DNA from: Stappia indica
GTDB taxonomy: Bacteria > Pseudomonadota > Alphaproteobacteria > Rhizobiales > Stappiaceae
Direction: 5' to 3'
Assembly: GCF_020177335.1 (NCBI RefSeq)
Contig: NZ_JAIVMG010000004.1
Coordinates: forward strand, 62,001-126,000
Length of the DNA stretch: 64,000 nucleotides
Shown: positions 1 through 28,525 of the stretch, in pieces
Layout: the number at the start of each line of letters is the position of its first letter
How positions within the stretch are numbered: position 1 is the stretch's first letter
The notes under the pieces: generated by a model
The model's database searches: none
What the model saw: only the letters and a program-made list of their open reading frames with translations
What the model was told of the DNA's origin: nothing
Made by a program: the position numbers and the translations under genes

Positions 1-491
1 GGGCCGGCATCGCGGACAACCCGTGCATAGAGCCGCAGCCAGCCGGCGGCGCAGCCAAGCGCGGTCCAGAAAAACCCGGTTCCGGCGACCCGGTCGGCAA
101 GCACACCGATGCTGGCATAGAGCAGGCCCCAGTGGGCCATGTCGACGAGGAAGTCGAGCATCCCGCCCAGCCGCGACGCCCGACCGGTGATCCGGGCAAG
201 CGCGCCATCGACACAGTCGAGGGTCAACACCGCGCAGCTCAACGCGGCTACGGCAGGCCCCGCGACAGAGAGCGGCAACAGCCCGGCGCTTGCCGGCAGC
301 ATCAGCACCAAAAGGCCAGAAAAAGCGGTGATCGCGCTCGGGCTCACCCTCGTGCGTGCAAACAGCCAGACCAGCGGAAAACTCCAGATCCGGTAGAAAA
401 TCACCACCGCCCAGTCGCCGCGCAGCTCGTCCTGCACCTTGCCGTTCCGATAATCGGCGGCGAGTGCCGCCAGCGTTGGCTTTCGCCGCAT
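1..491 (-). CDS. CDP-alcohol phosphatidyltransferase family protein (partial, C-terminus beyond window)
   Basis: This integral-membrane enzyme would join a CDP-activated alcohol or lipid to a second alcohol. Translating the minus strand from an ATG at 491 gives about 163 residues that run off the window edge. The complete family signature is visible at residues 92-117: D92, D95-G96, A99-R100, G109, D113 and D117, which bind the metal and CDP. Hydrophobic segments flank it. It is divergent from the nucleotidyltransferase at 574 with an 82-bp gap. That context suggests it uses a CDP- or CMP-activated head group made nearby (inositol-phosphate or aminoethylphosphonate type) or condenses CDP-diacylglycerol with inositol phosphate. 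The substrate is inferred. A GTG five codons upstream is an alternative start. Confidence 0.85.
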   Translation of the reverse strand, partial: MRRKPTLAALAADYRNGKVQDELRGDWAVVIFYRIWSFPLVWLFARTRVSPSAITAFSGLLVLMLPASAGLLPLSVAGPAVAALSCAVLTLDCVDGALARITGRASRLGGMLDFLVDMAHWGLLYASIGVLADRVAGTGFFWTALGCAAGWLRLYARVVRDAG

Positions 492-573
492 GTGCCCGAT
501 ACCCACACTGTCCCTTGCCGAGGCCTCACGCCTCCCCTAATACTGACCCGCCTTATCACAAACCGATGGTCAT

Positions 574-1365
574 ATGCGCAATATCACCGCTATTCTTCTT
601 GCCGCCGGACGGGGCGTGCGCATGGGTGCCCGAGGCCGGATGACGCCAAAGGGCCTGCTGTCGCTCGGCGACCGGTCCTTTGTCGAGGAATCGCTCGATA
701 CCTTGCGTGCCCATGACATCGGAGCAATCCGGATCGTCACCGGGCATCTGGAGGAGCAGTATCGGGAGATGGCTGGGAAAGGTCAGCCCGGCGTGACGCT
801 GGCGCACAATCCCGACTACGCGGTCAAGGGATCGCTGCACAGCCTGCTGGTCGGGCTTGACGGCCACACCGGCCCCTGCCTGGTGCTGGAGACCGACCTG
901 ATCTACGAACCGCGCGCCATTTCTGCCGCCATCGGCACTGCGGACCGGTCGGCGCTGCTGGTGTCCGGGCCGACTGAGGCCGGCGACGAGGTCTATGTCT
1001 GGGCGGATGAACGCACCGGCACCCTGTGTCTGCGCGACATGTCCAAGACCGCCGGTCAATGGCCGGATCCTCACCATGGCGAGCTGGTCGGAATCACCCA
1101 TCTCACTGGCGAGGCGGTCGAGGCGCTGAAGGCAATCGGCGCGGGGATGGTGGCGGAAACGCCGATGGCCGATTACGAATCCGGCCTGGTGGCGCTGGCC
1201 CGCGAGCATCCGGTGACCTGCCCGAAGATCGACGATCTCGCCTGGGCGGAGGTTGATGACGAGACCATGCTCGCCCGCGCCGCCGAGCGGGTCTATCCGC
1301 GCATTGTCGCCGCCCGCCAGGCCGCCACGAACCAAAGCGCTGCCGGCACCCCGGTTCCCGCCTGA
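574..1365 (+). CDS. Stand-alone sugar/alcohol-phosphate nucleotidyltransferase (CTP-type, LicC/PntC/IPCT-like)
   Basis: This 263-residue cytosolic protein should transfer a nucleotide (probably CMP) to a phosphate or phosphonate. The Rossmann-type NTP-binding signature is intact near the N-terminus (LLAAGRGVRMG at residues 8-18, then a PK pair), followed by a metal-binding acidic residue in LVLETDLIYEP. The size and motif resemble phosphocholine or AEP cytidylyltransferases and inositol-1-phosphate cytidylyltransferases. It is divergent from a CDP-alcohol phosphatidyltransferase, and a myo-inositol-phosphate synthase and a PEP mutase lie nearby. Inositol-1-phosphate and AEP are therefore the two leading candidate substrates. 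The specificity cannot be read from the sequence. No strong Shine-Dalgarno is visible before the ATG. Confidence 0.75.
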   Translation: MRNITAILLAAGRGVRMGARGRMTPKGLLSLGDRSFVEESLDTLRAHDIGAIRIVTGHLEEQYREMAGKGQPGVTLAHNPDYAVKGSLHSLLVGLDGHTGPCLVLETDLIYEPRAISAAIGTADRSALLVSGPTEAGDEVYVWADERTGTLCLRDMSKTAGQWPDPHHGELVGITHLTGEAVEALKAIGAGMVAETPMADYESGLVALAREHPVTCPKIDDLAWAEVDDETMLARAAERVYPRIVAARQAATNQSAAGTPVPA

Positions 1366-1381
1366 GGCCCCCGGCCTTCCG

Positions 1382-2605
1382 TCAATGAGGCCGCGACAGC
1401 ACCTGCTGTGCGGCCAGCGTTCCGCCAAGCGCCAGGACAATCGCCAGCCAGCTGCTGGTGAACCCGGACAGGCTGCCGATCTCCCCCATCGCCCAGGAGA
1501 CCTTGGTCGCCACCAGCGCCAGATAGCCGCACAGGGCCAGCGCGACGATCCGGGTCGGCGCGATGATCCGCCCCGAGCCGGCAACCGGCGCAAGGCTCGC
1601 GCCCAGGAGCGCATAGACACCGGGCAGGAACAGCGCCGCCCAGCGGCGCCACAGCGCCGCATCCACATCCGGTGTCTTCAGCGGATTGCCCGCCTCCGCC
1701 AGCCTCTCCAGCGGCGCCTGCGGCAGGTAAAATGCCGGAACGTCGTAGAACTCAAGGGTTTCGGGGAAAAGATCCAGCCGGATATCGATGCTGTCGTAGC
1801 GCGTCATCAGATAGAGCGATTTGCGCGCGTAGCCTTGGCTGCGGGCCGCCCCCTCACCGCCCTGTTGCGGCAGGCTGGCCCAGAGATCGACATCGTAGAA
1901 CCGCCAGAAGTTCTCATGCCCGGTCGGCACGGCGCGCTTGGCGACCAGCACATCGCGCAGATCGCCGCTCACCACCCCCCGGTAGAGTTCCACATCCCGC
2001 AGCTCCGGCGCCCCGTCACGCAAGACCGTTGCCCGCAGCGCGTTGCCGCTCAGGACGAACCAGCGTTTTTCATCGACGATGCCACGGGCAAAGCGCGCGC
2101 CATAACCGCCCAGTTCCAGCTCCGCCTGGGCAAACACCGCCGCCGGTCGCCACCAGCGTTCGAGCGAGAATTGCAGCGCGCCGGTAAGGCACCCGAACAC
2201 CGCCACCACCGCGAGCGTCTGCGCCGGCGACCATCCCGCCCCGGCCAGAACCGTCGTCTCGCGGTTGAACAGACGATAGAGCTCGGAGGCAAAAAGGCCG
2301 ATGAAACAGGCCACCGGAAACAGCCGGGTGACGATATCCACCGCCCGGTAGAGCAGATACCGGGCCAGAATGCCGCCCTTGCCCATCTCCAGCGCCTCGG
2401 CCCGCGCCAGAACGTCATCGAGGTTCTGCGCCAGATCGATCGCGAAGGCGATGATCAGGAACATCAGCATCACCAGGCCGCTCACTCGCAGATAGAGCAG
2501 CAGCGCCCGCCGCCCGGCAATGCCGAACACCGGCGCCCGCGCGCCAGACCAGGCACCCGCCTGCCGCCGTCCCTGAAGCGTGGAGGTCAGGGCGCTCATG
2601 GTCAT
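1382..2605 (-). CDS. lptG: LptF/LptG-family permease (second of a pair)
   Basis: This inner-membrane transporter subunit (407 residues) belongs to the family that feeds lipopolysaccharide to the Lpt bridge. An N-terminal group of hydrophobic helices is followed by a large soluble, presumably periplasmic, domain (about residues 130-300) and further C-terminal helices, the normal LptF/G plan. The start is set by an ATGA overlap with the stop of the upstream lptF-like gene, so the two are translationally coupled. The pair sits inside a sphingolipid-type locus and not beside lptD/surA-type genes. It could be a dedicated lipid exporter or the only Lpt pair of the genome; the window cannot separate these. 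Confidence 0.8.
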   Translation of the reverse strand: MTMSALTSTLQGRRQAGAWSGARAPVFGIAGRRALLLYLRVSGLVMLMFLIIAFAIDLAQNLDDVLARAEALEMGKGGILARYLLYRAVDIVTRLFPVACFIGLFASELYRLFNRETTVLAGAGWSPAQTLAVVAVFGCLTGALQFSLERWWRPAAVFAQAELELGGYGARFARGIVDEKRWFVLSGNALRATVLRDGAPELRDVELYRGVVSGDLRDVLVAKRAVPTGHENFWRFYDVDLWASLPQQGGEGAARSQGYARKSLYLMTRYDSIDIRLDLFPETLEFYDVPAFYLPQAPLERLAEAGNPLKTPDVDAALWRRWAALFLPGVYALLGASLAPVAGSGRIIAPTRIVALALCGYLALVATKVSWAMGEIGSLSGFTSSWLAIVLALGGTLAAQQVLSRPH

Positions 2606-3819
2606 GCCCGCTGTCCGACCGGGCGCAGCAGGGAATGGCGGCGCGCCCGCACCATCAGGCCCAGCAGCAGCAGCGCGGCCATGGCCATCACCGCACCTCC
2701 GCCGACCATCGTCCATGCGCCCTTGCCGGCCAGATCGGCGAGCGCGGCGCGCAAGGCAAGATCGAACGCCAGCAGCGCGGCACAGCCCGCCGGCATCACG
2801 AAGAAATTCGACAGCCCCCCTTGCGCCAGAACGCAGGCAACCAGCGCCAGCACCGGTGCCACCAGCGCCGCCAGCGCCCGGCCATAGCGTTCCGCGGCGA
2901 TCTCCCGGGCCTCGCGCGCCGTGTCGCTTCCCCCTTGCGCCCACAAGGCTTCGGCGAAGGTCCATTCCTCCGCCACCTCGCGTCGCGCGGCATGGCGCAG
3001 GATGTTGCGCAGGCTCACCGGCACCTCGACGTTTTCCACCCGCACCAGCGGCAGCATCGGCACATCGGCGATATCGGATCCGCCCAGAGACCTGAGATTC
3101 GGGCCACGCCCACCGCTCGACACCGCATCACCGCCGCCCTCATCGACGCGCTTGAAGTCATAGGCGTTCACCCGGCCGAGCCCGAGATTGTAGTTGCCCT
3201 CCGCGTCCGGACCGATCAGCTTCCAGTCCTCCGCCTGGGTCACGCGCCAGGCGCCATCCTCGCCCGGCTGGTGCACGAACAGGCTCTCATGCGGCGGCGA
3301 GACGCTGCTGTCGCTCAGCGCGGCGAAAGTCTTGCCGCGAATGGTCTCGATCAGCGTGCCCTCGCTGGGTTCGGTGATCCGGCGGAACAGAAGATCGCTC
3401 GTCAGGTTGAACACCACCGCCCGGTTGGCGCTGGCGGCCAGAGGGTTGAGGAAGCCGGACACCAGCAAGCTGGCGCCAAAGGCCATGACGCCCACCACAA
3501 GCACCACTTTCAGGGCCAATGACCAGGACACGCCAGCGGCGGACAGCGCCACCAGCTCCCGCTCCTCACGCGCGGCGACCAGCGCGAAATAGACGCCGAT
3601 GACGCAGGCCAGCGCCAGGGCGAAGTCGAAGATCTCCGGCGAGGTCAGCAACAGGATCGACAGCGCGGAGACAAGCCCGCCGCCATTGCCCAGCACCTCT
3701 TCCAGTATGCCGGTCAGCTTCTCGGCGAGAAACACCACCTCGATGGTGGCGACAACGATCACCACCTTGGCCGCGATGCGCGCCATCAGGGCGCGCGAGG
3801 CAAGCCCTCCCATCCTCAT
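2602..3819 (-). CDS. lptF: LptF/LptG-family permease (first of a pair)
   Basis: This is the partner permease of about 405 residues, with N-terminal membrane helices, a long soluble middle region (roughly residues 120-300) and three closing helices near the C-terminus. In the known family, LptF and LptG form a heterodimer driven by the LptB ATPase; no ATPase gene is seen here. The start is uncertain: ATG at 3819 is chosen because it lies just ahead of the first helix, but an in-frame start at 3879 and a second ATG at 3813 exist and none has a clear ribosome-binding site. It is divergent from the pgpA-like gene and overlaps the next permease by four bases. Confidence 0.78.
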   Translation of the reverse strand: MRMGGLASRALMARIAAKVVIVVATIEVVFLAEKLTGILEEVLGNGGGLVSALSILLLTSPEIFDFALALACVIGVYFALVAAREERELVALSAAGVSWSLALKVVLVVGVMAFGASLLVSGFLNPLAASANRAVVFNLTSDLLFRRITEPSEGTLIETIRGKTFAALSDSSVSPPHESLFVHQPGEDGAWRVTQAEDWKLIGPDAEGNYNLGLGRVNAYDFKRVDEGGGDAVSSGGRGPNLRSLGGSDIADVPMLPLVRVENVEVPVSLRNILRHAARREVAEEWTFAEALWAQGGSDTAREAREIAAERYGRALAALVAPVLALVACVLAQGGLSNFFVMPAGCAALLAFDLALRAALADLAGKGAWTMVGGGAVMAMAALLLLGLMVRARRHSLLRPVGQRA

Positions 3820-3933
3820 GCCGGACCGCACAGCATGGGGGAACGCACGGGCCGCACACCTGCCCGCCGCCCTCGGCACATCGCATCGCGCAGGTCTGTC
3901 CGCATCGTCTCCGGGCCGGTTTCGTGATAGTCA

Positions 3934-3981
3934 GTCGGCAACAACACCGCCCGATTCCCTTTAATATCATAGGTTGCCGAC
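3934..3981. repeat. 9-bp inverted repeat ahead of pgpA-like gene
   Basis: GTCGGCAAC at 3934-3942 is repeated in inverse as GTTGCCGAC at 3973-3981, ending one base before the ATG of the downstream gene and covering its AGG ribosome-binding site. It could be an operator for the divergent lptF and pgpA promoters, or an RNA stem that hides the start. Either role is inference. Confidence 0.4.
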
Positions 3982-3982
3982 G

Positions 3983-4438
3983 ATGCGCCGTCTTGCCTAT
4001 CTCGTTGGGTTGTCACTGGGCGCCGGCCATGCGCCGTTCTGGCCCGGCACCTTCGGCGCCGCCGTCGGCCTCCTCTTCGCCGCCAGCCTGATGGCGCTTG
4101 CCTGGCCGGTCAAGCTCGCGGGCCTCGTGCTGCTGTTTGTCATCGGTGTCTGGGCCTCGGCGGCGGTTGCCGCCGATACCGGTCTTGAAGATCCGCAAAT
4201 CGTCGTTGTCGATGAAAGCTTCGGCGCCGCCGCCGTGGTTCTGGTGCTGCCGTTCGATCCGCTCTGGTGGGCAGCCGGCTTCATCGCCTTTCGCGCCTTC
4301 GACATTCTCAAGCCCTTCCCGGTCAATTGGGTGCAGGACAAGGTGAAGGGCGGGCTCGGCATCATGCTCGATGATGCCGCCGCCGCTGTCTATGCGATCC
4401 TTCTGCTGCTGCCGGCAAGCTGGCTTCTGGGCAATTGA
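3983..4438 (+). CDS. pgpA: PgpA-type phosphatidylglycerophosphatase / lipid-phosphate phosphatase
   Basis: This 151-residue membrane phosphatase matches PgpA along its length: an early G-T-F-G segment after WPG, the acidic block DPQIVVVDESFG, the FRAFDILKPFP segment and the closing GGLGIMLDD block. PgpA removes the terminal phosphate of phosphatidylglycerophosphate. In inositol-lipid pathways a phosphatase does the equivalent step on phosphatidylinositol phosphate. Its position next to a CDP-diglyceride synthase-like gene and an inositol-phosphate synthase gene makes that second role plausible here. ATG at 3983 is preferred over a TTG at 3974 because AGG at 3971-3973 is well spaced for it. 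Confidence 0.85.
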   Translation: MRRLAYLVGLSLGAGHAPFWPGTFGAAVGLLFAASLMALAWPVKLAGLVLLFVIGVWASAAVAADTGLEDPQIVVVDESFGAAAVVLVLPFDPLWWAAGFIAFRAFDILKPFPVNWVQDKVKGGLGIMLDDAAAAVYAILLLLPASWLLGN

Positions 4439-4453
4439 TCACCGCAGTCTCCC

Positions 4454-5377
4454 CTAGCCGATCAGCCGCAACAAAAGAACGAGCGCCGGGCCGGCGATCA
4501 GCCAGGCATCGGCGATATCCAGCACTCCGCCCTGCCGGGGCAGCACCTGCGGATAGTCCTTGACCCCGGAGGCCCGCTTCAGCCGCGACCCGGCAAGATC
4601 GCCGACAACCGCCGTCACCGCGATCAGGGCGGCGACCAGCACCGCCAGCCACAGCGGCCAGCCAAGCACCAGCGGTCCGGCCAGCGCCGCTGTCAGCGCA
4701 AGCGCGGCGCCGCCAATCGCCAGCCCCTCGATGGTCTTGCGCGGACTCAAAACCGGAAACGCCGGACGGCGACCGAACATCTTGCCGCCAAGCAGGGCAT
4801 AGCTGTCGTAGGTTTCCACCAGAAGAAAGGCGAGCAGCAGCAGACCGGCATTGTCACCGGTCAGCGCGCAGGCGACGAACAACACCAGCGGCAGCACCGG
4901 GAAGAGCACAAGTTCAGCGGCGATCCGTGCCCCTCGTCCCTCACCGCCCGGCATCATCGCCAGGGTACCAGCCGCGATCAGCCCGGAAAGCGTCACAAGG
5001 CCGGCGCTCCAGACGAGCGGCAGGGCATCAACTGCCATGCCGGCTCCGAAGCACAGCCCCCCCAGACCGAGGGGCAGAAGCCTGCGCATGACCGATCCGC
5101 TTGCCCCCTCGCAGCGCAGCAGCGCCACCTGCCCGGCCTCATGGCCGATGCGCAGGCAAAGGGCGGCAAGGCACAGCCACAGCACCGCCCCGCCAAACAC
5201 GAAGGGCAAAACGGCGGCGGCGACAATGACCAGTTCGGTGACGAAGGTCGGCCAGAGCGGACGGGCCTTGGCCGCCGTCGCCGGCACGAGACTGCCCAGC
5301 CCCAGCACCAGCGCGCCGAAGCCGAGGCCAATGGCGATCGCCCAGAGCACCAGATCCGGCGCCAGAACGACCGTCAC
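4454..5377 (-). CDS. cdsA: CDP-diglyceride synthase-like protein (CdsA family)
   Basis: This protein of 307 residues has about eight or nine membrane helices. It would make CDP-diacylglycerol, or a CDP-activated relative, from CTP and a phosphatidic acid. The CdsA signature is recognisable near the C-terminus: S-R-L-K-R, then V-K-D, then P-R-Q-G-G-V-L-D with a final D. The usual PGHGG reads PRQGG and the usual DR reads DI, so it is a divergent member. A GTG start at 5377 overlaps the stop of the upstream reductase gene (GTGA) and is preceded by AAGGGG. A housekeeping CdsA is probably encoded elsewhere, so this copy may serve the local lipid pathway; that is inference. Confidence 0.8.
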   Translation of the reverse strand: MTVVLAPDLVLWAIAIGLGFGALVLGLGSLVPATAAKARPLWPTFVTELVIVAAAVLPFVFGGAVLWLCLAALCLRIGHEAGQVALLRCEGASGSVMRRLLPLGLGGLCFGAGMAVDALPLVWSAGLVTLSGLIAAGTLAMMPGGEGRGARIAAELVLFPVLPLVLFVACALTGDNAGLLLLAFLLVETYDSYALLGGKMFGRRPAFPVLSPRKTIEGLAIGGAALALTAALAGPLVLGWPLWLAVLVAALIAVTAVVGDLAGSRLKRASGVKDYPQVLPRQGGVLDIADAWLIAGPALVLLLRLIG

Positions 5378-6201
5378 GACCGCCCCTTGCGGGCGATGCG
5401 CATCTGATAGCGGCGCAGCAAGGGCGCCAGCATGCTGTGGCCATAGGCCAGCATGGTCATCTGCGCGCCCGGCGCCACCAGGAAGCGTCCGCGCGAGGCG
5501 CCCTTGACGATCCGCTCGGCAACCCGCTCCGCCGACCACAACCCGCCGCCGGCGGTGATCGCCTGGGTGATCGCCGGCTTGGTCTCGTTTTCCGCCGCAA
5601 GCTGTGGGGTGTCCGTATCCGGCGGATAGGCCAGCGTCACGGAAATGCCCTTGCCGGCCAGTTCGACCCGCAACACCTCGGCCAGGCCGCGCAGGGCGAA
5701 TTTCGACGGCGCATAGGCCGCATAGCCGTAAATGCCGAAAAACGCCGCGCCGGACGAGACGAACACCATGCGTCCGCCACCGGCCTCGGCCATCTCCGGG
5801 GCCACGACCCGGGCGATATTGAGTGCGCCGAAATAATTGGTCGCCATCTGGTCGTGATGGTCATCAACCGGCTGGTCGAGGAAATGGCCGGGCCGTGCGA
5901 TCCCGGCATTGAGCACCGCCCAATCCGGCGGCCCCATCTCCGCGATCGCCGCCTGCACCGCGGCCGCGCCGGCTTGTGCATCGGCCACATCGGCCGGATA
6001 GAGGCCGATCCGCGCCTCCGGCGCCATGGCCGCCAGCTGCTGCCGTGCGACCTCCAGCCGGTCGGCGCGGCGCGACACCAGCGCCAGATCGAAGCCAAGG
6101 CCGGCGAGCTTGCCCGCCAGCGCCAGGCCGATGCCGCTGCTGCCGCCGGTGATCAGCGCAACCGGCCGTCCGTCCTGCCTGTCGCGCCCACCGGCCGGCA
6201 T
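5374..6201 (-). CDS. 3-ketosphinganine reductase-type short-chain dehydrogenase
   Basis: This 275-residue SDR carries the cofactor motif TGGSSGIG (residues 18-25), NAG at 98-100, catalytic S150, and Y163/K167 in YAPSK. The stretch after it, FALRGLAEVLRVEL followed by AYPPDTDTP (about 191-199), is characteristic of eukaryotic-type 3-ketodihydrosphingosine reductase (KDSR/FVT1/Tsc10) and unlike ordinary fatty-acid reductases. It would reduce 3-ketosphinganine, the product of the serine palmitoyltransferase at 8130-9368, with NADPH. The gene sits 2 bp after the inositol-phosphate synthase gene and overlaps the cdsA-like gene, so all three are in one operon. Some bacteria (for example Caulobacter) use an unrelated reductase, which makes this type noteworthy. 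Confidence 0.82.
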   Translation of the reverse strand: MPAGGRDRQDGRPVALITGGSSGIGLALAGKLAGLGFDLALVSRRADRLEVARQQLAAMAPEARIGLYPADVADAQAGAAAVQAAIAEMGPPDWAVLNAGIARPGHFLDQPVDDHHDQMATNYFGALNIARVVAPEMAEAGGGRMVFVSSGAAFFGIYGYAAYAPSKFALRGLAEVLRVELAGKGISVTLAYPPDTDTPQLAAENETKPAITQAITAGGGLWSAERVAERIVKGASRGRFLVAPGAQMTMLAYGHSMLAPLLRRYQMRIARKGRS

Positions 6202-6203
6202 GG

Positions 6204-7316
6204 TCAGCCCTCCCGGCCTTCCGCGAAGGCGATAAGCCGCTCGTAGCCTTCCGAATCCTCGATCTGCGTCGGCGGATGCTTGAACAGGAAGGCGCTGGCA
6301 TCATCGATCGGCCCAGCCAAGCCGCGATCACGGGCGATCCGCGCGCAGCGGATGGCGATCAGCGCCATCGCCGCCGCATTCGGCGAATCCTCCACCTCAA
6401 GCCGCATTTCCACATGGGTGCGCACACCGCCGAACAGCCGCCCCTCAAGGCGCACATAGGCCACCTTGCGGTCTTCCAACCACGGCACGTAGTCCGACGG
6501 GCCGATGCGGATCTCGCTGTCGTCGAGACGAGCATTCATCGCCGTCTGCACCGCCTCGGTCTTCGATTCCCGCTTCATCGTCAGACGGTCCATGTCCATC
6601 ATGTTGAGGAAGTCGGTATTGCCGCCCACATTGAGCTGATAGGTCTTGTCCACCTTGACGCCGCGCATGTCGGCCAGCCGGGCAAGGGTGCGGTGGGTGA
6701 TGGTCGCGCCGAACTGCGCCTTGAAGTCATCGCCGACAATCGGCACGCCCGCATCGCGGAACCGCTTGGCCCAGACCGGGTCGGAGGCGATGAACACCGG
6801 AATGCCATTGACGAAGGCGCAACCGGCCTCCAGCGCGCATTCGGCGTAGAACTCGGTCGCCTCGATCGAGCCGACCGGCAGGAAGTTGATGATCACCTCG
6901 GCCCGCGCCTCGCGCAGGGCGGCAACAACGCCCGCCTTGTCGAGCGGTGCGTCCGGCGAGACCACGAAGCTGCGGTCCGGCGCCTGGTTGCGCATGAAGG
7001 CGGACACGCCATCGAGATCCGGACCGCGAAACACCGGCGCGATCATCTCCGACAGGGCATCGTGGAAGATCTCGGTGCAGTTGGGCAGGGCCACCGCCGC
7101 CTCGCCGACCGTGCGCCCGACCTTGCGCGCGTCCACATCGAAGGCGGCGACGATTTCCACGTCGGACGGCTTGTAGCCGCCAAGCACCGGGAACGGAACG
7201 CCGATCGCGTCCTCGCCCTTTTCGCGGCAATAGGCAACACCCTGCACCAGCGAGCTGGCGCAGTTGCCGGCGCCGACGATCGCCGTGCGGATCGAAGTGG
7301 CGGAAGAACCTGTCAT
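6204..7316 (-). CDS. ino1: myo-inositol-1-phosphate synthase (short actinobacterial/archaeal type)
   Basis: This 370-residue enzyme converts glucose-6-phosphate to inositol-phosphate using NAD. The N-terminal nucleotide-binding block (GAGNCASSLVQGV) and the FVNGIP and NVGGNTDF segments are typical of the short Ino1 group. The start at 7316 is chosen because homology begins right after it; AGGGG lies about 13 bases upstream. A start at 7388 is possible but adds 24 Arg-rich residues. Inositol-phosphate synthase in a sphingolipid locus implies inositol-containing lipids, as in Bacteroides. The reductase gene follows after 2 bp. Confidence 0.9.
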   Translation of the reverse strand: MTGSSATSIRTAIVGAGNCASSLVQGVAYCREKGEDAIGVPFPVLGGYKPSDVEIVAAFDVDARKVGRTVGEAAVALPNCTEIFHDALSEMIAPVFRGPDLDGVSAFMRNQAPDRSFVVSPDAPLDKAGVVAALREARAEVIINFLPVGSIEATEFYAECALEAGCAFVNGIPVFIASDPVWAKRFRDAGVPIVGDDFKAQFGATITHRTLARLADMRGVKVDKTYQLNVGGNTDFLNMMDMDRLTMKRESKTEAVQTAMNARLDDSEIRIGPSDYVPWLEDRKVAYVRLEGRLFGGVRTHVEMRLEVEDSPNAAAMALIAIRCARIARDRGLAGPIDDASAFLFKHPPTQIEDSEGYERLIAFAEGREG

Positions 7317-7436: not shown

Positions 7437-8120
7437 TTACTCGATCTGGATTCGTTCCACCAGCGGCCTGCCCGTCGCCGCGTCATGTCCCATCACCGAG
7501 ACCGTGCGCACGCTCGGCATGAGCCCGCTCTCATCCACATCGATATAGGCATAGATCGGCCGCATCTGCCGCCCCCCGGCCGGTACGGTGAGTTCTGCCC
7601 GCCCTGGCGCCACCAGTCGCAGGGTCGCCTTGCGTTCCGGATAGGACACCACGTAAAGCCGGAACACGGTCGGATCGTCCGTCCGCTCGGTCCGCACGCC
7701 GAAGGCGAAATTGTCCTCGATCATCTTCAGCGGCAGGCGCTCGCCCGTCGTGTTGTAGCGGCGCCAGTAGGCGGCCACCGGCTCATTCGGGTCGAGCGTG
7801 CCGTCCTCGCGGAAGCGCGCGGCGTAGATCACCGTGTTGGGATTGGTCGAACGCTGCAGGTAGAACAGCATGTTCGGCTCGTTCGGCACCGGAAACTCCG
7901 GCCGCACCACCGGCAGCGTCTTCACCTCGGTCACGGCGGAGGCCCGCGCCCGCTGGGTCGACGCGGCGAAGCCCCGCTTCACCCCTTCCTGTGCAACCGC
8001 CGGCCCGCCCGGTCCGCCTGCAAGACACAGCAGCCCAAGCAGCAATGTCAGCGCGCACGCCAGGTGAAGCAACCGGCGCGATCCAGCAGGAGCCAATGGT
8101 GAGCCGGAACGGGCAACCAT
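7437..8120 (-). CDS. Secreted DUF4833-like protein
   Basis: This is a 227-residue protein of unknown function. An N-terminal signal peptide (hydrophobic core about residues 18-35, probable cut after AVA) places it in the periplasm or attaches it to the outer membrane. The mature part has a conserved-looking block (PNEPNMLFYLQRSTNPNTVI and, further on, a YWRRY and a NFAFGVRTER segment) that I recognise as DUF4833; this comes from memory of the family. It lies 9 bp after the serine palmitoyltransferase gene, so co-transcription is likely. Working between a sphingolipid synthase and an inositol-phosphate synthase, it may take part in periplasmic handling of the lipid. That is a guess from context. 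Confidence 0.65.
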   Translation of the reverse strand: MVARSGSPLAPAGSRRLLHLACALTLLLGLLCLAGGPGGPAVAQEGVKRGFAASTQRARASAVTEVKTLPVVRPEFPVPNEPNMLFYLQRSTNPNTVIYAARFREDGTLDPNEPVAAYWRRYNTTGERLPLKMIEDNFAFGVRTERTDDPTVFRLYVVSYPERKATLRLVAPGRAELTVPAGGRQMRPIYAYIDVDESGLMPSVRTVSVMGHDAATGRPLVERIQIE

Positions 8121-8129
8121 GGCGCGGGC

Positions 8130-9368
8130 TCAGACCCCGCCAAGCGCCAGCGCGCGCACCCGTTCCGGATCTTGCCCGGCGGCGACCACCGCCGCGATGA
8201 TGCCGATCGTCCGGTCCATTTCCTCATCCGTATGAGCGGCGGAGATGAAGAAGCGGATGCGGGGCTGGTCCTTGGGCACACCGATCTGCACGATCGGCGG
8301 CGCGTAGATACCCTCTTCAAGCAGCGCCTGGGAGGCGATCATGGTCTGCTCGACAGTGGAAAACAGCAGCGGCACGACCCCGCGGCCGATGGAGGCGCCC
8401 GTGTCGAGCCCGGCTTCCCGTGCCTTGTCGCGGAAGTAGACGGAGTTGCGATGCAGTCGCTCGACCAGTTCCGGATGTTCCCGCAACTGGATGAGGGCGC
8501 CATGCGCGCTGCCCAGCGCCGCCGGCGACAAGCCGACACTGTAGACGAAGCCAGGCAACGCGAAGCGCAGCCAGTCGATCACGCCCTTTTCCGCGCAGAC
8601 AAAGCCGCCGGAGGACACGAAAGACTTGGACAGGGTGCCGACGGTCAGCTCGATCCGGCCCGGATCGATCTCGAAATGCTCGCACAGCCCCCGGCCGGTG
8701 GCGCCGAGAACGCCATAGGAATGGGCCTCATCGACCAGAAGCCAGGCATCGTGGGCTTCCTTGATCTCGACCAGGCGCGGCAGATCCGGGATGTCGCCAT
8801 CCATCGAATAAAGACCCTCGACCACCACCAGCACGTTGCGGTACTGGCCACGCACCTCGGCAAGCTGCCGCTCGAGGTCGTCCAGATCATTATGCCGGAA
8901 GGTGCGGTGATCGTAGCGGCCATTCTTGGCGCCGACGAAGATCGAGTTGTGGGCCAGTTCGTCGATCAGCACCAGATCGCGCGGTCCCATCAGATAGTTG
9001 ATCAGCGACAGGTTCACCAGATAGCCGCTGACAAGGCACATCACATCGCCGACACCGAGGAATTCGGCCATCTCGCTTTCGAAGGCCCGGTGACCGGACC
9101 GCTCGCCGCCGACCAGCCGGGACGCGCCGACGCTGCTGCCGAGCCGATGCAATCCCTCGCTCGCCTTCTTGATGACCTCTGGATGATGGCTGAGGCCAAG
9201 GTAGTCGTAGTGCCCGAAACTGACGAAGGGGATGTTCTTCTGTTCGCAGATCTCGCGCTGCCGGTCCACCGGAAGGAAGTAGGGGTTGTGCCGCTCGATG
9301 ATCGACTTGCCGGCGAGACGGAAGCGCCGCTCAGCGACAACGGAAAAGCTTGGCCGATCAGGCTTCAT
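8130..9368 (-). CDS. spt: Serine palmitoyltransferase-type alpha-oxoamine synthase
   Basis: This 412-residue PLP enzyme should condense serine with a fatty acyl thioester to give 3-ketosphinganine, the first step of sphingolipid synthesis. The PLP lysine is K248 in TLSKSF, the aspartate is D213 in DEAHSYG, and the Ser/Gly-rich GSSVGASRLVGG segment at 77-88 is typical. The oxoamine synthase family also contains KBL, BioF and HemA. The serine palmitoyltransferase reading rests on the adjacent KDSR-type reductase and on the N-terminal FGHYDYLGL block seen in this subgroup. GGGGG lies upstream of the ATG. No acyl carrier protein or ceramide synthase gene is visible in the window. Confidence 0.85.
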   Translation of the reverse strand: MKPDRPSFSVVAERRFRLAGKSIIERHNPYFLPVDRQREICEQKNIPFVSFGHYDYLGLSHHPEVIKKASEGLHRLGSSVGASRLVGGERSGHRAFESEMAEFLGVGDVMCLVSGYLVNLSLINYLMGPRDLVLIDELAHNSIFVGAKNGRYDHRTFRHNDLDDLERQLAEVRGQYRNVLVVVEGLYSMDGDIPDLPRLVEIKEAHDAWLLVDEAHSYGVLGATGRGLCEHFEIDPGRIELTVGTLSKSFVSSGGFVCAEKGVIDWLRFALPGFVYSVGLSPAALGSAHGALIQLREHPELVERLHRNSVYFRDKAREAGLDTGASIGRGVVPLLFSTVEQTMIASQALLEEGIYAPPIVQIGVPKDQPRIRFFISAAHTDEEMDRTIGIIAAVVAAGQDPERVRALALGGV

Positions 9369-9690: not shown

Positions 9691-9705
9691 TGACGTGCCA
9701 CGTCA
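9691..9705. promoter_or_regulatory. Perfect dyad TGACGTG-C-CACGTCA
   Basis: Two 7-bp arms around a single central base make a near-perfect operator-like palindrome about 320 bp upstream of the serine palmitoyltransferase start. Its binding protein is unknown. Confidence 0.35.
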
Positions 9706-9799
9706 TCGATATATTTGTCGAGGCGTTTTCAACCGGTTACACAGGCCCGTCCGCCCCCTCGCGCAGGAGGCGTGGCGGCACTGGTCGGCGCTGGGAAGC

Positions 9800-9842
9800 G
9801 CCCGTATAGGGCGGAAATCAACGGCTTCCGCCCTATACGGGC
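9800..9842. repeat. 17-bp perfect inverted repeat with 9-base loop
   Basis: GCCCGTATAGGGCGGAA at 9800-9816 pairs perfectly with 9826-9842 around the loop ATCAACGGC. It is about 110 bp downstream of the biosynthetic AEP transaminase stop. No T-run follows on either strand, so it is not a classical intrinsic terminator. It could be an mRNA 3'-end stem or a dispersed palindromic repeat. Confidence 0.7.
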
Positions 9843-9951
9843 AGCGTGCCAGAGGTCGCGCCGCAGCGATCTTCCGCCGTGCGTCCGCGCGGGCAAGGCG
9901 CGCGCGATCGCCGCGCCTCCTCGCAAGAGCGCAGGAAAGCGCCCCACAACC

Positions 9952-11061
9952 TCAGGCAATCAATTTCTGTTTCATTTCTGTTATAACGGCGGTCACGGCC
10001 TCCAGAAATCCATGCATGGTCTCAGGGGTGATCGCACCGATGGTGCCGACTCGGAAGGTGCCGTGCTGGCGCATCTTGCCCGCATAGATAGCATAGCCTC
10101 GCCGCCGCAGCACATCGTAGAAGCGGGTGAAGTCGAACCAACTCTCCTGCGGTTCGAGGAACGACACGATCACCGGCGCCTGGCGTTCGCGCGGCAGCGC
10201 GCTGGCAAAGCCGAGCCGCGTCATGCCCGCGAGCAGCGTGTCGCAATTTTCCGTATAGCGGGCGAGCCGGGCCGCGGGGCCGCCTTCCTCGCGCAACTCC
10301 GCAAGCGCCGCATCGAGCGCTGCCATCACCTGCACCGGCGGGGTGAAGCGCCATTGCCCATCGCCCGCCAGCGCCTGTTCCTGCAGATGGAGGTCAAGGA
10401 CCAGCGAATGCGCATGGCCGGCGCAGCGGTCCAGCAGCTCGCGCCGGCACAGAACGAACCCCAGCCCCGGCACCCCTTGCAGGCATTTGTTGGCCGAGGC
10501 CGCCAGCCCGGCGAAGGCCAGCTCCCGCGCATCGAGCGGCAGAGCGCCGAACCCGCTCATGGAATCCACCAGGAGCTCGCGTCCGGCCTCGCGCACGGTC
10601 CGGGCGATCTCCGCCAGCGGATTGAGCAGCCCGGACGTGGTCTCGCAATGCACCGCCGCGACGAAGCCGATCTCCGGCGCATCCTCCAGCCGGCGCGCCA
10701 GCTCCGCCATGTCGTGCACCTCGGTCTCGGCGACCTCATACACCTGATGGTGGCGGCCGATGCGGCGGCAGATCTCGGCGATCCGCTGGCCGTAGGCGCC
10801 ATTGACCAGCACCAGAACGCCCACATCCGGGGCGACCAGCGTGCCGAGCATGGCTTCTACCGCGAAGGTGCCGCTGCCCTGCACCGGCACGGCGGCGTAG
10901 TCGGCACCGGCGCCGGCCACAGCCCGCACACCGTCGAGCACCCGCCCGGTCAACGCGACGAAGGCCGGATCGCGCGAGCCCCAGTCCTGCGGCAAGGCCT
11001 GCTTGACCTGGGCGCTGGTGGTCAGGGGTCCCGGTGTCAGCAGGATCGGTTCGTCATGCAT
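9952..11061 (-). CDS. phnW: 2-aminoethylphosphonate:pyruvate transaminase (biosynthetic operon copy)
   Basis: This is a fold-type I PLP transaminase of 369 residues. K192 in SANKCLQGVPG should bind PLP; D166 in LLVDSMSGFG and the [10 protein letters not shown] opening are standard for PhnW. In this operon, directly after PEP mutase and phosphonopyruvate decarboxylase, it should run in the direction phosphonoacetaldehyde to AEP. ATG at 11061 is chosen because GGAG sits 9 bases upstream; ATGs at 11067 and 11076 are alternatives. It overlaps the decarboxylase stop by 8 bases. A second, divergent copy at 20010-21203 belongs to the degradation operon. Confidence 0.92.
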   Translation of the reverse strand: MHDEPILLTPGPLTTSAQVKQALPQDWGSRDPAFVALTGRVLDGVRAVAGAGADYAAVPVQGSGTFAVEAMLGTLVAPDVGVLVLVNGAYGQRIAEICRRIGRHHQVYEVAETEVHDMAELARRLEDAPEIGFVAAVHCETTSGLLNPLAEIARTVREAGRELLVDSMSGFGALPLDARELAFAGLAASANKCLQGVPGLGFVLCRRELLDRCAGHAHSLVLDLHLQEQALAGDGQWRFTPPVQVMAALDAALAELREEGGPAARLARYTENCDTLLAGMTRLGFASALPRERQAPVIVSFLEPQESWFDFTRFYDVLRRRGYAIYAGKMRQHGTFRVGTIGAITPETMHGFLEAVTAVITEMKQKLIA

Positions 11062-12211
11062 CGCCATTGGCTCCATGCTGTGAGAGATAGGCGCGAAACC
11101 GGCGGGCCACATCGCGCGGCGCCGTCGTCGGTCGGCCAAGATTTTCCATGCCGCTGGCCGCGACCCGAATGTGGAGGCAGCGCGGACCGGGCTGGTCCAG
11201 CGCCGCGCGGAACGCAGCCTGCGCCTGATCGAGACCATCCACCCGCGCGGCGAACCGGTAGCCGCAGGCAGCGGCAACCGCCGCGAAGTCCACCTGCGGC
11301 GAGACCGTCGCCTGGCCGCCGGTGGATTCATGCATGCCGTTGTCGAGGATCACATGGGTGAGATTTTCCGGCGCCTCGGCGCCGATGGTCGCCATGTTGC
11401 CGAGCTTCATCAACGCCGCGCCGTCGCCATCCAGCACCACGATCTGGCGCGAGGAATTGAGCGCCGCACCAAGGCCGATGGCGCTGGCTCCACCCATGGA
11501 GCCGACGCAATAAAGATTGCGCGGGTGATCCTCCAGCGTGAACAGCTCCCGGCCGGTGAAGCCGGTGGTGGCGATCACCCCCGCGCCCGGCGGCAGCGCC
11601 GCGACGATCCGCTCCATCACCGCCACCCGCCGTGCCGGGCCCGTGGCGCCAACAAAATCGGCGACAGCGACGGCCGCGCGCACCGGCGGGCGCTCCTGCG
11701 TGAGCGGCATCGGTCGGATCGCTCCCTTCGGCTGGACAAAGGCGAAGGGCCGCCCGGTCTCCGACATATGCGCGCGTGCGGCGGCGAGCTTTCCCGCCAC
11801 CTCGTCGGCGGAGGCGGGAAAGAGCTCGTGGCGCGCGCCAATCAGTTCCAGAAGCTCCGGCGTGATCCGCCCCATCAGATCGTGCTGCGGCTCGTCCTTC
11901 AGCCCCGGCTGACCGCGCCAGGTGACGATCATCAGCGTCGGGATCTCAAACGGATGGTTCAGCGAGGTCACCGGATTGACCGCATTGCCAAGACCGGAGT
12001 TCTGGCACATCACCACCGTGTCCCGGCCGGCCAGCCAGGCGCCGGCGGCAATCGCCACCGCCTCGCCCTCGCTGGTCGCCCCCACATAGCGGGCCGCCGG
12101 ATCGGCGATCACCGCGTTCATCAGGGGGGTGAGGAAGCTGCAGGGCACCCCGGTAAAGAAATCGATGCCCTGCCTGGTGGCGGCGGAAAGAAAGTCGGAT
12201 GCCTCGATCAT
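11054..12211 (-). CDS. ppd: Phosphonopyruvate decarboxylase
   Basis: This is a TPP- and Mg-dependent decarboxylase of 385 residues. It drives phosphonate synthesis by converting phosphonopyruvate to phosphonoacetaldehyde, which pulls the unfavourable PEP mutase step. The N-terminal TPP half carries the glutamate in ATSEGEAVA (about 46-54). The C-terminal half has the TPP/Mg motif starting GDGAALMKLG and ending at N in ILDNG. ATG at 12211 begins the homologous region 7 bp after the PEP mutase stop. The next gene overlaps its end. Sulfopyruvate decarboxylase is the nearest alternative but is unlikely in this operon. Confidence 0.93.
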   Translation of the reverse strand: MIEASDFLSAATRQGIDFFTGVPCSFLTPLMNAVIADPAARYVGATSEGEAVAIAAGAWLAGRDTVVMCQNSGLGNAVNPVTSLNHPFEIPTLMIVTWRGQPGLKDEPQHDLMGRITPELLELIGARHELFPASADEVAGKLAAARAHMSETGRPFAFVQPKGAIRPMPLTQERPPVRAAVAVADFVGATGPARRVAVMERIVAALPPGAGVIATTGFTGRELFTLEDHPRNLYCVGSMGGASAIGLGAALNSSRQIVVLDGDGAALMKLGNMATIGAEAPENLTHVILDNGMHESTGGQATVSPQVDFAAVAAACGYRFAARVDGLDQAQAAFRAALDQPGPRCLHIRVAASGMENLGRPTTAPRDVARRFRAYLSQHGANGDA

Positions 12212-12218
12212 CTGCCGC

Positions 12219-13880
12219 TCACATCGAATCCCGCGCCTGGGCAAGGTCCATCACGTCGTTCACGTTGCGCCAGTAGCCGCGCACATAGACAACGGCGATG
12301 CGTGCTCCCTTCTCCGCCAGCCGGGTCAGCACCGCACCGGTATCGGCGGATTCGAGGCGGCCTTCGCCCTGCATCGCCGCGAGCTCCGCCTTCAGGCGCC
12401 GTGTGCCCTCGGCACTGGTGCGCAGCAGGCCGATCCATTCCCCGTCGCCGGCCCCATCGCTTTTCCCATCGCTTTTCGCATCGCTCTGGCCCTCGACGAA
12501 CCGGGTCAGCAGCGGCGCCACCCCGCCAAGGTCCGGATCGTCGCTGAACGGCAGCGTGCAGGCGACCGGATCGCGACCGGTGGTGCTCCCGTCCGGGTCG
12601 ACCAGCAGGACGATGTCCTCCTCCCGCTCCTCCAGAAGGCCGAGGAAGAACGGGCGGTAGACGATATCGCCGAAGGACAGCACCATCGCCCCGTCGAGCC
12701 GCTCCAGCGCCAGCGCCAGCGAGGCCGCCTCGCCGGTGGTGGCATGGTCCTCGTTCACCACCTTGTGGATGCCCGGCACGGTCACCGCATCGGCGCGATA
12801 GCCGGCAACCACGGTGATATCGCTCACCCCATGCCGGTTCAGCGCCTCGACCTGACGGCCCAGGATCGACCGGCCCCGGACCGGCACCATGCATTTGGGC
12901 TGTTCCAGGGTGAGATCGCCCAGGCTCTCGCCGCGCGTCGCCGCCAGGATCACGCCCTGCGCCGATCCGCTTGACGCGGCGAGATAGCGCTTTTCGGCAG
13001 CTTCCAGTTCCCCGGCGCCGGCCAGTGCGAACACATCGGCCAGCGGCGCGACGCTGTCTTCCACGTCGATCAGGGTCTCGCTGCGCTTCAGCTCCGCGCA
13101 GGTGTCGCGCATCGCCTGAATGGAGCTGCGCAGATTGTGGTTCGCCCAGATCACCATCGACGCGCCAACCTCGCGGAACCGATCGGTCGGGGTGCGGTAG
13201 TATTTGGTCGGAATGAGGATCACCGGCGCCCGGTTGTCCCATTCCCGGCAGAAGGCGAGGATTTCGTCCGCCGAGCTTTTCTTGGAGTGAATGACGATGG
13301 CGTCCGCCCCGGCATCCGCATAGGCATGGGCACGCTTCAGCGCTTCCTCCAGCCCGCGCCCGGCGATCAGCGCCTCGACCCGCGCGACGATGGAGAAGTC
13401 GGCGTGCTCCTGGGTGTCCTTGCCGGCCTTGATCTTGCCGCAGAACTCGTCGATGTCGGCGAGCGGCTGGTTCTCGCCGAGGAACGAGTTGGTCTTGGGG
13501 AAGATCTTGTCCTCGATGCACACCCCGGCCACGCCACGCTGGCACAGCTTTTTCACGAAACGGCGGAAATTGTTGAAGTTGCCGTAGCCGGTATCGCCAT
13601 CGACCAGGATCGGCAGGCTAGAGGCGTCGGACATGTATTCCAGCATGTCCAGCACCTGGGTCCAGGACAGCTCGTTGTTGTCCCGCACGCCGAGCGTCGC
13701 CGACATGGACAGGCCCGAAGCCCAGATCCCCTCAAAGCCGGCTTCCTCGACGATCTTCGCCGACAATCCGCTGTGCGCCTCCATCAGGAACGCCATCTCC
13801 GGCCGGGTCAGCAACTGGCGCAACCGGGTGAACCGGGAGACGGGTGCGGCGTTCGATCCGCGCGTGTTTTCCAACAGCAA
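12219..13880 (-). CDS. pepM: Phosphoenolpyruvate mutase fused to a nucleotidyltransferase domain
   Basis: This is a 553-residue bifunctional protein. Residues about 15-300 are PEP mutase, which forms the C-P bond: DGDTGYG at 94-100 and the diagnostic [10 protein letters not shown] at 123-132. Residues 309-553 are a nucleotidyltransferase domain, as in fusions thought to make CMP-AEP. In that domain the usual LAAGxGxRL loop reads LAATRGESL, so the second glycine-rich position and the arginine are replaced; this may be a subfamily trait or reduced activity. The start is TTG at 13880, supported by AAAGGA six bases upstream; no suitable ATG exists. A short Ser-Asp-Gly/Lys repeat lies near residue 470. 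Confidence 0.93.
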
Positions 13881-13892
13881 GGGCAGTCCTTT
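13881..13892 (-). promoter_or_regulatory. Ribosome-binding site that sets the TTG start of pepM
   Basis: On the minus strand AAAGGA (13892-13887) is followed by six bases and then TTG at 13880. It is the only well-spaced Shine-Dalgarno before the PEP mutase domain, and no ATG or GTG is available in frame nearby. Confidence 0.6.
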
Positions 13893-13978
13893 CAATGATG
13901 ACGGCAGGCTGGGAGGCAAGGAAGAGGATGGGTCAGGCGCCGGTGCAGGCCCTGAGCGGACCCGGGCCGGTCCCTTCC

Positions 13979-14797
13979 TTAGACCTTGAACCTGTATTCG
14001 GTCGAGGCGGCACGCTCCACATCCGGCGGATAATTCGCATGTTTGTCGGCGTAGTAGCGCGCCAGATGGTCGCCGTCCGCCGCGCGGTTGTAGGTGGCGA
14101 AATAGAGCCGGCGCTGACGATCGCTGCGGTTGGTCTCGGACCGGTGCGGACAGAAGCTGTCGATCAGCACCACATCGCCCGGCTCTGTCGCCACCGGCAC
14201 GAAGGTCATGTCCTTCATATCCTCGTCGGTCAAGGGTTCCCATTCGCGGAACATGCCGCGCTGGTGATGGCCGGCGGCGAACTCGACGCAGCCGCTTTCC
14301 GGTGTCGCCGGATCGACGCACACCATGATGGAGACGAAGCGCGGCGCGTAGTTCCACCAGCCCGCCTGCTGGTCCTGATGCGGCGTGAAGCCGGCGCCGC
14401 CCGGGCGTTTGAAATTGACCTTCTCCTTGAACAGCGCCGCCGGTCCGCCGAGCGCTTCGCCGGCATAGCCGAGCAGTGCGGTACTGAGCCCGGCGAAGAC
14501 CGGAGAGAACGGCACCAGATTTTCCATCCGGCTGATCACCCGGCGCGGCTCCGGGTCCTCGACCGTCTCGCCGTAGACCCAATGCTGGCCCGGCGCTTCC
14601 GGCACCTTTTCCAGCCGTTCGATCTCCGCTTCGATGGCCGCAATTGCCGCCGGATCGAAGGCGTTCTTGAGCAGAAGGAACCCATCGGCCTGGTAGCGCG
14701 CGCTTTCCTCAGCGCTCATGGCGCGCGGCAAGGCGAAGCCGTTTTCATCCGCCGGCGCCGCCGTGTTCAGTGCCATGCCGCCCGTCGTCTCTCCCAT
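13979..14797 (-). CDS. PhyH-family Fe(II)/2-oxoglutarate dioxygenase, possible AEP hydroxylase
   Basis: This is a phytanoyl-CoA-dioxygenase-type oxygenase of 272 residues. The iron ligands H140-x-D142 (in TPHQDQQAG) and H218 (in CPHRSETN) are present, with an arginine near 229 suited to 2-oxoglutarate. PhyH members in phosphonate loci (PhnY* type) hydroxylate AEP to 1-hydroxy-AEP. Here it heads the biosynthetic operon, so it may hydroxylate AEP either as a head-group decoration or ahead of breakdown by the PbfA-like lyase at 15801. ATG at 14797 follows GAGGGGA with good spacing. A 98-bp gap separates it from pepM. Confidence 0.8.
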
Positions 14798-15790: not shown

Positions 15791-15800
15791 TCAGATTGCC

Positions 15801-28506: not shown

Positions 28507-28525
28507 CGCAAGGCCCGCCCCCACT

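Follow-up and report, generated by a model that had tools for sequence, protein, structure and literature searches.

The window analyzed here is a 64,000-bp stretch of the 4.66-Mb genome of Stappia indica (G000), corresponding to G000:C4:62001-126000. It carries a gene cluster in which a lipid operon is combined with an operon for the synthesis of 2-aminoethylphosphonate (AEP). The cluster is real and conserved, with both operons kept together as a single unit. On balance, we favor the interpretation that this one cluster directs the synthesis of an outer-membrane lipid that bears inositol and sugar and is probably sphingoid-based, and furnishes this lipid with AEP or hydroxy-AEP. The gene families, their order, their co-occurrence and the active-site residues of the nucleotidyltransferase PntC were observed directly.

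All the genes named in the original prediction, made from the DNA letters, are present, with their families assigned by profile models and their boundaries checked. The complete phosphoenolpyruvate (PEP) mutase-decarboxylase-transaminase operon that it described is confirmed, as all three enzymes score above curated cut-offs. Its nucleotidyltransferase can be refined to a putative PntC, based on sequence and active-site residues. The export pair that it posited corresponds to a second LptF/LptG-like pair in the cluster, with the canonical pair located separately on contig C6. Positions below are those of the window unless a contig or locus is given, and window features are on the minus strand unless otherwise stated. 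The PEP mutase (PepM, 12219..13841; TIGR02320, 389 bits, cut-off 320) is fused C-terminally to an NTP_transf_3 domain (PF12804, 50 bits) and carries the EDKxxxxxNS motif as given in PMC6697681. Its start is uncertain, as the frame stays open further upstream. It is followed by phosphonopyruvate decarboxylase (Ppd, 11054..12244; TIGR03297, 415 bits, cut-off 313) and the AEP transaminase (9952..11067; TIGR03301, 423 bits, cut-off 361), and 583 bp separate the AEP genes from the gene for a serine palmitoyltransferase (SPT)-like synthase. The cluster extends about 5 kb beyond the left edge of the window, to G000:C4:57237 (equivalent to L004:7237). From the edge outward, this part contains the rest of a CDP-alcohol phosphotransferase (CdpPT1), a GT4 glycosyltransferase, a Stealth protein, an FGGY kinase and a second CDP-alcohol phosphotransferase (CdpPT2), running from L004:12506 down to 7237.

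The organization of the cluster is maintained in those members of the family that have it. An orthologue of the SPT-like protein with at least 74% identity is found in 16 of 61 related genomes, comprising 13 of the 14 genomes of the genus (this one included) and all three of genus g7. The counterpart in Stappia taiwanensis (Stappiaceae, Hyphomicrobiales) is 94% identical. The 40 kb around this gene was read in the 15 other Stappiaceae genomes, and the same 17 genes, from CdpPT2 to PepM and including the AEP operon, are found in the same order in all 15. A lack of joint occurrence of the operons in related genomes had been named as one of the results that would refute the original prediction, and joint occurrence is what is observed: a PEP mutase above the curated cut-off, with the AEP operon adjacent, is present in 16/16 Stappiaceae genomes with the cluster, and none of the 21 genomes without the lipid operon has one. 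The near miss is G032, with a PEP mutase at 307 bits against the cut-off of 320. The sole member of the genus without the cluster, G001, is 89% complete. These 37 genomes are related, and they represent one or a few events and not 37 independent ones.

Parts of the gene set are also found in two other families. A search of 385 alphaproteobacterial genomes for myo-inositol-1-phosphate synthase (MIPS) gave 30 positives, this genome included. Nineteen of the 29 others were fetched, and the cluster is present in two of them, G082 (family f49) and G200 (family f31); no such cluster was seen in the other 17, of which 8-20 kb each was read. Searches with the FGGY kinase in the orders of G082 and G200 gave 9/244 and 6/96 positive genomes, respectively. 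The counts below cover 30 genomes, namely 29 plus the window genome, after G838 was dropped (FGGY 35%, otherwise only a weak PbfA-like match). Absence of PntC, CdpPT1, Stealth, PgpA and LptF/G refers to the stretches read, at a threshold of at least 40 bits, and absence of PepM, as well as of PbfA in 19 genomes, to genome-wide searches.

In family f49, five genomes (G082, G906, G936, G958 and G974) have only a core, made up of the SPT-like synthase, DUF4833, MIPS, a short-chain reductase (SDR), CdsA, LptF, LptG, GT4, FGGY and CdpPT2. G1013 and G1061 have this core plus PntC, CdpPT1 and Stealth, and G1091 has the core plus PntC and CdpPT1. In G952, only Stealth, FGGY and CdpPT2 were found in the 60 kb read, and the SPT-like gene and its neighbors were not found there; its PepM is of another type (34%, with no fused nucleotidyltransferase domain matched), and no PntC is seen in the stretch read. 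In family f31, G200 has CdpPT2, FGGY, Stealth, GT4, CdpPT1, MIPS, CdsA, SDR and SPT-like genes. Some 7 kb beyond this core cluster, a PhyH-PntC pair is divergent to genes for PepM fused to the nucleotidyltransferase domain, Ppd and the transaminase. The same AEP cluster is located on other contigs in G839 and G858, both of which are fragmented. In G858, the genes divergent to PepM-Ppd-transaminase are PhyH and PntC, accompanied by a CdpPT1 homologue (28%). G800 and G803 have core genes only. The lipid core is therefore the common element, AEP genes accompany it in two families, and a distant family repeats the lipid-AEP pairing.

The proposed sphingoid backbone would be made by two enzymes. 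The SPT-like alpha-oxoamine synthase (8130..9368) has its best Protein Data Bank match in an SPT (3A2B, 204 bits), compared to 193 bits for 8S1Y, of the KBL/BioF type. Its best profile model is bioF (316 of 426 bits), and a BioF identity was set aside in view of the lipid-gene context. The KDSR-like SDR (5374..6201; adh_short, 149 bits; PRK06181, 147 bits, cut-off 215) carries a YAPSK motif and is a candidate 3-ketosphinganine-type reductase. In a tree of 73 relatives of the synthase, which contains no characterized SPT and several long branches, the proteins from the Stappiaceae and f49 clusters form one clade (24 rows, 100/98). The nearest larger group includes similar copies of other members of the Stappiaceae and the order, and proteins from Roseomonas-type loci. 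A synthase combined with an SDR is compatible with a sphingoid base in either a lipid or a capsule setting; serine would be the substrate, and N-acylation would give a ceramide. We take Caulobacter CC_1154 to be a PF04339 protein, and a PF04339 protein elsewhere in this genome is our guess at a ceramide synthase and not evidence for one. A second alpha-oxoamine synthase is found at L005:850-14217 (G000:C1), beside a 2534-residue polyketide synthase (PKS)-like protein and genes that resemble, by eye, capsule export genes (KpsC/KpsS-like); this locus resembles those of the Rkp capsule-anchor type.

These capsule connections bring up an alternative that we consider improbable, namely that the product is a lipid-anchored surface glycan. 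As in Rkp-type capsule clusters, the synthase and SDR would serve solely to produce the anchor, and AEP would decorate the glycan and not the lipid, perhaps through the Stealth phosphotransferase. The copy of the synthase on contig C1, with its PKS and apparent capsule export neighbors, is in accord with such a product, and all three outside relatives of the synthase that were examined come from loci of the capsule type; in two cases, an SDR gene is adjacent. On a plasmid of Acidisoma sp. PAMC 29798 (L280), a 54% relative is found with SDR, sterol desaturase-family, LTA synthase-family and capsular biosynthesis genes, possibly a sphingoid-type capsule anchor. A 44% relative on a Pseudomonas plasmid is accompanied by PKS and capsule genes, and a 43% relative in Sinorhizobium meliloti lies beside a 7.5-kb PKS-sized gene, an SDR gene and a capsule gene. 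These loci are reminiscent of the rhizobial rkp genes. In addition, Stealth is present in all 18 genomes that have a cluster-type PepM and a readable FGGY neighborhood (16 Stappiaceae, G200 and G839). However, the cluster has LptF/G, and no capsule export or PKS gene is seen in it. Stealth is missing in G1091, where PntC and CdpPT1 are present, PepM is missing in G1013 and G1061, where Stealth is present, and CdpPT1 is a member of a lipid/inositol phosphotransferase family. These features speak against a surface glycan.

The inositol part of such a lipid would be produced by MIPS (6204..7316; PF01658, 116 bits), which scores 404 bits on TIGR03450, under the cut-off of 638 of that mycothiol-specific model. 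CdpPT2 has its best profile matches in archaetidylinositol-phosphate synthase (120 bits, cut-off 180), PIP synthase (77 bits, cut-off 170) and BT1523 (67 bits), all below cut-off, and it also matches structures of PIP synthases best. A PgpA-like phosphatase (3974..4438, plus strand; PF04608, 128 bits) is proposed to act on the inositol-phosphate lipid by analogy to BT_1525, as described in part in PMC9246714. This genome therefore has MIPS, a PIP synthase-like CDP-alcohol transferase with the catalytic motif and a PgpA-like phosphatase together. The nearest solved relative of the GT4 enzyme is PimA (132 bits, next family 56), and this PimA-like glycosyltransferase, the FGGY kinase and the Stealth protein would add a sugar layer to the pathway.

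We also consider it unlikely that the locus makes two products, diacylglycerol-based lipids resembling phosphatidylinositol mannosides and a separate sphingoid lipid that bears AEP directly, as in Bdellovibrio stolpii and the AEP-ceramide of Trypanosoma cruzi. The Bacteroides PIP synthase and PgpA-type phosphatase have glycerolipids as their substrates, according to the available sections of PMC9246714, and PimA acts on phosphatidylinositol. Moreover, no enzyme like BT_1522, which transfers inositol phosphate to ceramide, is recognized in the cluster. On the other hand, the clusters read have their inositol genes interspersed with the SPT-like ones, also in the five f49 genomes without AEP genes, which suggests one product.

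The lipid and AEP operons appear to be linked by the gene at 574..1365 (plus strand), which encodes the putative CTP:AEP cytidylyltransferase PntC, of the NTP_transf_3 family. Its closest solved relative is the Treponema denticola PntC-AEPT (6PD1), with 131 bits over the whole domain, and the next is LicC with 34 bits. In PntC, Arg15, Lys25 and Lys153 have been tied to catalysis, and Glu104 and Glu196 to the amine of AEP, in the sections of Rice et al. 2019 (PMC6697681) used here. The equivalents of all five residues are kept in this protein, and they are conserved in all 16 Stappiaceae and three f49 proteins. PntC adjoins CdpPT1, a divergent CDP-alcohol phosphotransferase (3..506, truncated at the window edge; full-length gene L004:11772-12506; PF01066, 31 bits). 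The whole CdpPT1 gene holds the DxxDGxxARx8GxxxDxxxD motif, and the catalytic motif given in PMC9246714 is present in both CdpPT1 and CdpPT2. PntC and CdpPT1 occur together in 21 of the 30 genomes; one (G839, fragmented) has only PntC and eight have neither in the stretches read, where CdpPT1 was never seen without PntC. PepM is present in 19 of the 22 genomes with PntC. Because of the residue conservation, the co-occurrence of the two genes and the catalytic motif, PntC followed by CdpPT1 is the best candidate for the activation and transfer of AEP.

Still more doubtful than the two alternatives above is the possibility that AEP is used for something else and that the group added by PntC and CdpPT1 is phosphoethanolamine or some other amino-phosphate. 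In favor of this, three genomes that are 99-100% complete (G1013, G1091 and G1061) have PntC and CdpPT1 and no PEP mutase genome-wide at the threshold used, Glu104 is replaced by Asp, as in LicC, in the three PntC proteins of f31, and phosphoethanolamine is missing from the PntC assay table consulted. Against it, the two Glu residues in contact with the amine of AEP are kept in all 16 Stappiaceae and three f49 proteins, the great majority of PntC genomes have PepM, and in G858 PntC and a CdpPT1 homologue are inside the AEP cluster itself. In G1013, G1091 and G1061, the two enzymes may use imported AEP or another substrate such as phosphoethanolamine.

AEP may be further modified in some strains. 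A PhyH-type dioxygenase (13979..14836; PF05721, 111 bits; methylphosphonate-hydroxylase model, 127 bits, cut-off 500), proposed to be an AEP 1-hydroxylase, adjoins PepM in six of the 16 Stappiaceae genomes (G000, G013, G008, G011, G005 and G010) and adjoins PepM or PntC in nine genomes overall, the other three belonging to f31. A genome-wide search at 1e-100 for the hydroxy-AEP lyase PbfA gave no match in five of these nine (G008, G010, G200, G839 and G858). For this reason a purely catabolic role of PhyH was set aside, and PhyH is more likely to be a head-group enzyme than part of the breakdown. It may be catabolic in the other four genomes, two of which have an adjacent PbfA.

The reactions, the AEP acceptor, the lipid backbone, the sugar and the role in transport can be combined into the following scheme, as predicted from the sequences. 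The SPT-like synthase and the SDR would produce a long-chain amino alcohol, and MIPS would provide inositol phosphate. The CdsA-like enzyme would form a CDP-lipid, which the PIP synthase-like CdpPT2 would join to inositol phosphate. The extra phosphate would be removed by a phosphatase (PgpA in Stappiaceae), and a hexose would be added by the PimA-like enzyme. PepM, Ppd and the transaminase would produce AEP, to be activated by PntC to CMP-AEP. CdpPT1 would then move AEP from CMP-AEP onto the lipid, either at a hydroxyl of the sphingoid base or ceramide or at the inositol-glycan, and PhyH, where present, would hydroxylate AEP. Export of the product would be driven by the second LptF/LptG pair. 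More tentatively, and with less confidence than the general scheme, the locus could be a bacterial counterpart of the trypanosome glycoinositolphospholipids (GIPLs), producing a hexosyl-inositol-phospho-sphingolipid that is capped with AEP (1-hydroxy-AEP in strains with PhyH) by a CMP-AEP-dependent CDP-alcohol phosphotransferase.

Several observations weigh against this scheme. The SPT-like enzyme does not pass any curated SPT model, with 285, 268 and 201 bits for NF047599, NF047600 and NF047603 compared to cut-offs of 500, 640 and 670 bits. The larger tree group nearest to the Stappiaceae/f49 clade includes the PKS-adjacent paralogue of this genome, and the synthases of two f31 clusters are located in that group, outside the clade. 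No ceramide synthase or sphingoid kinase is recognized in the cluster. As a result, the ceramide-type lipid with phosphoinositol, AEP or both of the original prediction is upheld only in part: the supply of both inositol phosphate and AEP is encoded at the locus, and the ceramide is not supported by these searches. The SPT-like and AEP genes may be transcribed separately. DUF4833 and LptF/G are seen in none of the five f31 stretches, several of which are fragments. PgpA is absent from all nine f49 and all five f31 stretches, so that it is in the cluster only in Stappiaceae, which weakens the phosphatase step. CdpPT1 is only weakly similar to solved enzymes (E of 0.058 at best). The three f31 PntC proteins have a residue other than Lys at the Lys153 position in addition to the Asp at the Glu104 position, and the absence of PEP mutase from three of the 22 PntC genomes also belongs here. 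Finally, AEP may in fact be activated by the nucleotidyltransferase domain of the PepM fusion instead of PntC. This domain scores 30 bits with LicC and 29.5 bits with 6PD1 among solved structures, and it may act on a different phosphonate. By eye, this domain (12219-12980) seems to have no equivalent of PntC Glu104.

The second-copy permeases are located at 1382..2605 (LptG-like; PF03739, 87 bits) and 2602..3819 (LptF-like; PF03739, 55 bits), and the canonical pair on C6 has 220 and 214 bits. The genome encodes three PF01148 proteins, among them the CdsA-like cytidylyltransferase of the cluster (4454..5377; PF01148 or CTP_transf_1, 116 bits), whose KR, KD, GG and D residues are kept among relatives. 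The DUF4833 protein (7437..8120; PF16117, 101 bits) has an N-terminal hydrophobic stretch. Its family is matched in only 3 of 398 genomes of the phylum, this one included, and it is present in 16/16 Stappiaceae and 8/9 f49 clusters. A YWRR motif in this protein is conserved, as judged by eye, and a scan of viral contigs produced no relative of it. AlphaFold models have low confidence both for DUF4833 (pLDDT 38) and for a CdpPT1 orthologue (pLDDT 41.5).

Beyond the genes for AEP synthesis lies a complete operon for the breakdown and uptake of AEP, from 14951 to 28914. The part for AEP and hydroxy-AEP breakdown (14951..21272) encodes an EamA transporter, PbfA (679 bits, cut-off 525), PhnY (800, cut-off 636), PhnA (535, cut-off 408) and PhnW (482, cut-off 401). 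A Na/Pi symporter and the AEP ABC uptake genes PhnU2 (802 bits), PhnT2 (497 bits) and PhnS2 (482 bits), these three all above cut-off, are located at 21440..28914. The synthesis and breakdown operons each have their own PhnW-type transaminase. The one at 9952 is taken to be the biosynthetic copy, and a catabolic role for it was set aside, because the breakdown operon has its own PhnW (20010-21272). Among the 16 Stappiaceae genomes read, synthesis is found beside breakdown and uptake (window 9952-28914) in two, G000 and G013 (S. taiwanensis), which are also the only two in which EamA-PbfA-PhnY-PhnA adjoins the cluster. The genome thus appears both to build and, next door, to digest the same phosphonate.

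A scan of genome contigs for SPT-like relatives found 85 places, of which 80 loci were kept, and besides that of S. taiwanensis none of the other 79 loci has the cluster in the stretch at hand, many being only 3-12 kb. Plasmid searches produced no match with PntC at 1e-20, 107 records with MIPS (all below 60% identity) and 17 records with the SPT-like protein; three of the 17 were examined, none of which has the cluster. Searches of open-licence PMC literature yielded neither an account of this cluster nor a set of genes for sphingophosphonolipids in bacteria, a nil result of little weight.

The steps from AEP to phosphonyl modifications of the cell surface are described as unknown in the sections of Rice et al. 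2019 (PMC6697681) available, and PntC with CdpPT1 is a testable candidate for AEP activation and transfer that is tied to a specific lipid pathway. If the scheme is correct, the cluster would provide the genes behind a class of bacterial lipids that has been established chemically in B. stolpii. If the more tentative GIPL-like reading is true, the locus would be a genetic blueprint for sphingophosphonolipids in bacteria and would include a novel transferase activity, that of a CMP-AEP-dependent CDP-alcohol phosphotransferase. The S form of hydroxy-AEP has yet to be detected in oceans, as stated in part of PMC12366243, and the cluster may name a biological source of hydroxy-AEP.

A comparison can be made with several known systems. 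Lipids with this rare carbon-phosphorus head group have to date been described from a few parasites, from invertebrates and from a single predatory bacterium. The pnt clusters of Treponema denticola and Atopobium rimae share PepM, Ppd, AEPT, the AEP cytidylyltransferase and the PepM-PF12804 fusion, a domain found on about a third of PEP mutases, according to the available sections of PMC6697681. Those clusters are tied there to LicD-like phosphotransferases or glycosyltransferases, whereas the partners in Stappia are inositol-lipid, sphingoid-type and CDP-alcohol transferase genes; the words sphingo, inositol and CDP-alcohol are absent from the main text of PMC6697681. The sphingophosphonolipids of Bdellovibrio (Bacteriovorax) stolpii resemble the predicted product in having a 1-hydroxy-2-aminoethylphosphonate head group on a sphingoid lipid (PMC6148460, PMC12366243). 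They are known from chemistry, the open-licence literature searches gave no gene cluster for them, and no inositol or sugar is described for them in the parts of these two papers considered. For Trypanosoma, the likeness is in the predicted product only, with PEP mutase-derived AEP on ceramide (PMC5648825) and AEP on the mannose-bearing glycan of the inositol-phospho-lipid in GIPLs (PMC7618162, PMC11765627). In comparison, these are eukaryotic systems with a glucosamine-containing glycan of the glycosylphosphatidylinositol type. The ethanolamine-phosphate cytidylyltransferase of T. brucei is reported not to accept AEP, in the portions seen of PMC5648825/PMC7618162/PMC11765627.

Another comparison is with the rhizobial rkpA-G-H-I-J K-antigen genes: one S. 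meliloti locus has a homologous alpha-oxoamine synthase (43%) and SDR (40% over 163 residues). This locus differs in its PKS-sized gene and capsule genes, none of which is seen in the Stappia cluster. The Caulobacter ceramide phosphoglycerate region (CC_1168-CC_1152) is similar in having spt together with second copies of LptC/F/G, and in the CDP-alcohol-type transferase CC_1159 and nucleotidyltransferases CC_1153 and CC_1152 proposed for its head group, as described in the sections of PMC11324152 consulted. It has a phosphoglycerate head group, another reductase (CerR) and CerS, in contrast to the Stappia cluster, and the word inositol is absent from the main text of PMC11324152. The Bacteroides genes BT_1522-BT_1526 (Heaver et al. 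2022, PMC9246714) share MIPS, the CDP-alcohol PIP synthase and the PgpA-like PIP phosphatase, and an alternative cluster in that paper, with an NTP transferase, a CDP-alcohol transferase and a HAD hydrolase, uses a CDP-activated head group. No phosphonate, PimA-like, FGGY or LptF/G genes are described for BT_1522-BT_1526 in the available part of PMC9246714, which assigns the transfer of inositol phosphate to ceramide to BT_1522, the enzyme with no recognized equivalent in the Stappia cluster. By analogy, MIPS, CdpPT2 and PgpA would repeat the Bacteroides set of MIPS, PIP synthase and PIP phosphatase, with a glycosyl step added. The parts of the Stappia cluster are of known kinds, and what seems to be new is that they are brought together with AEP, inositol and a PimA-like step.

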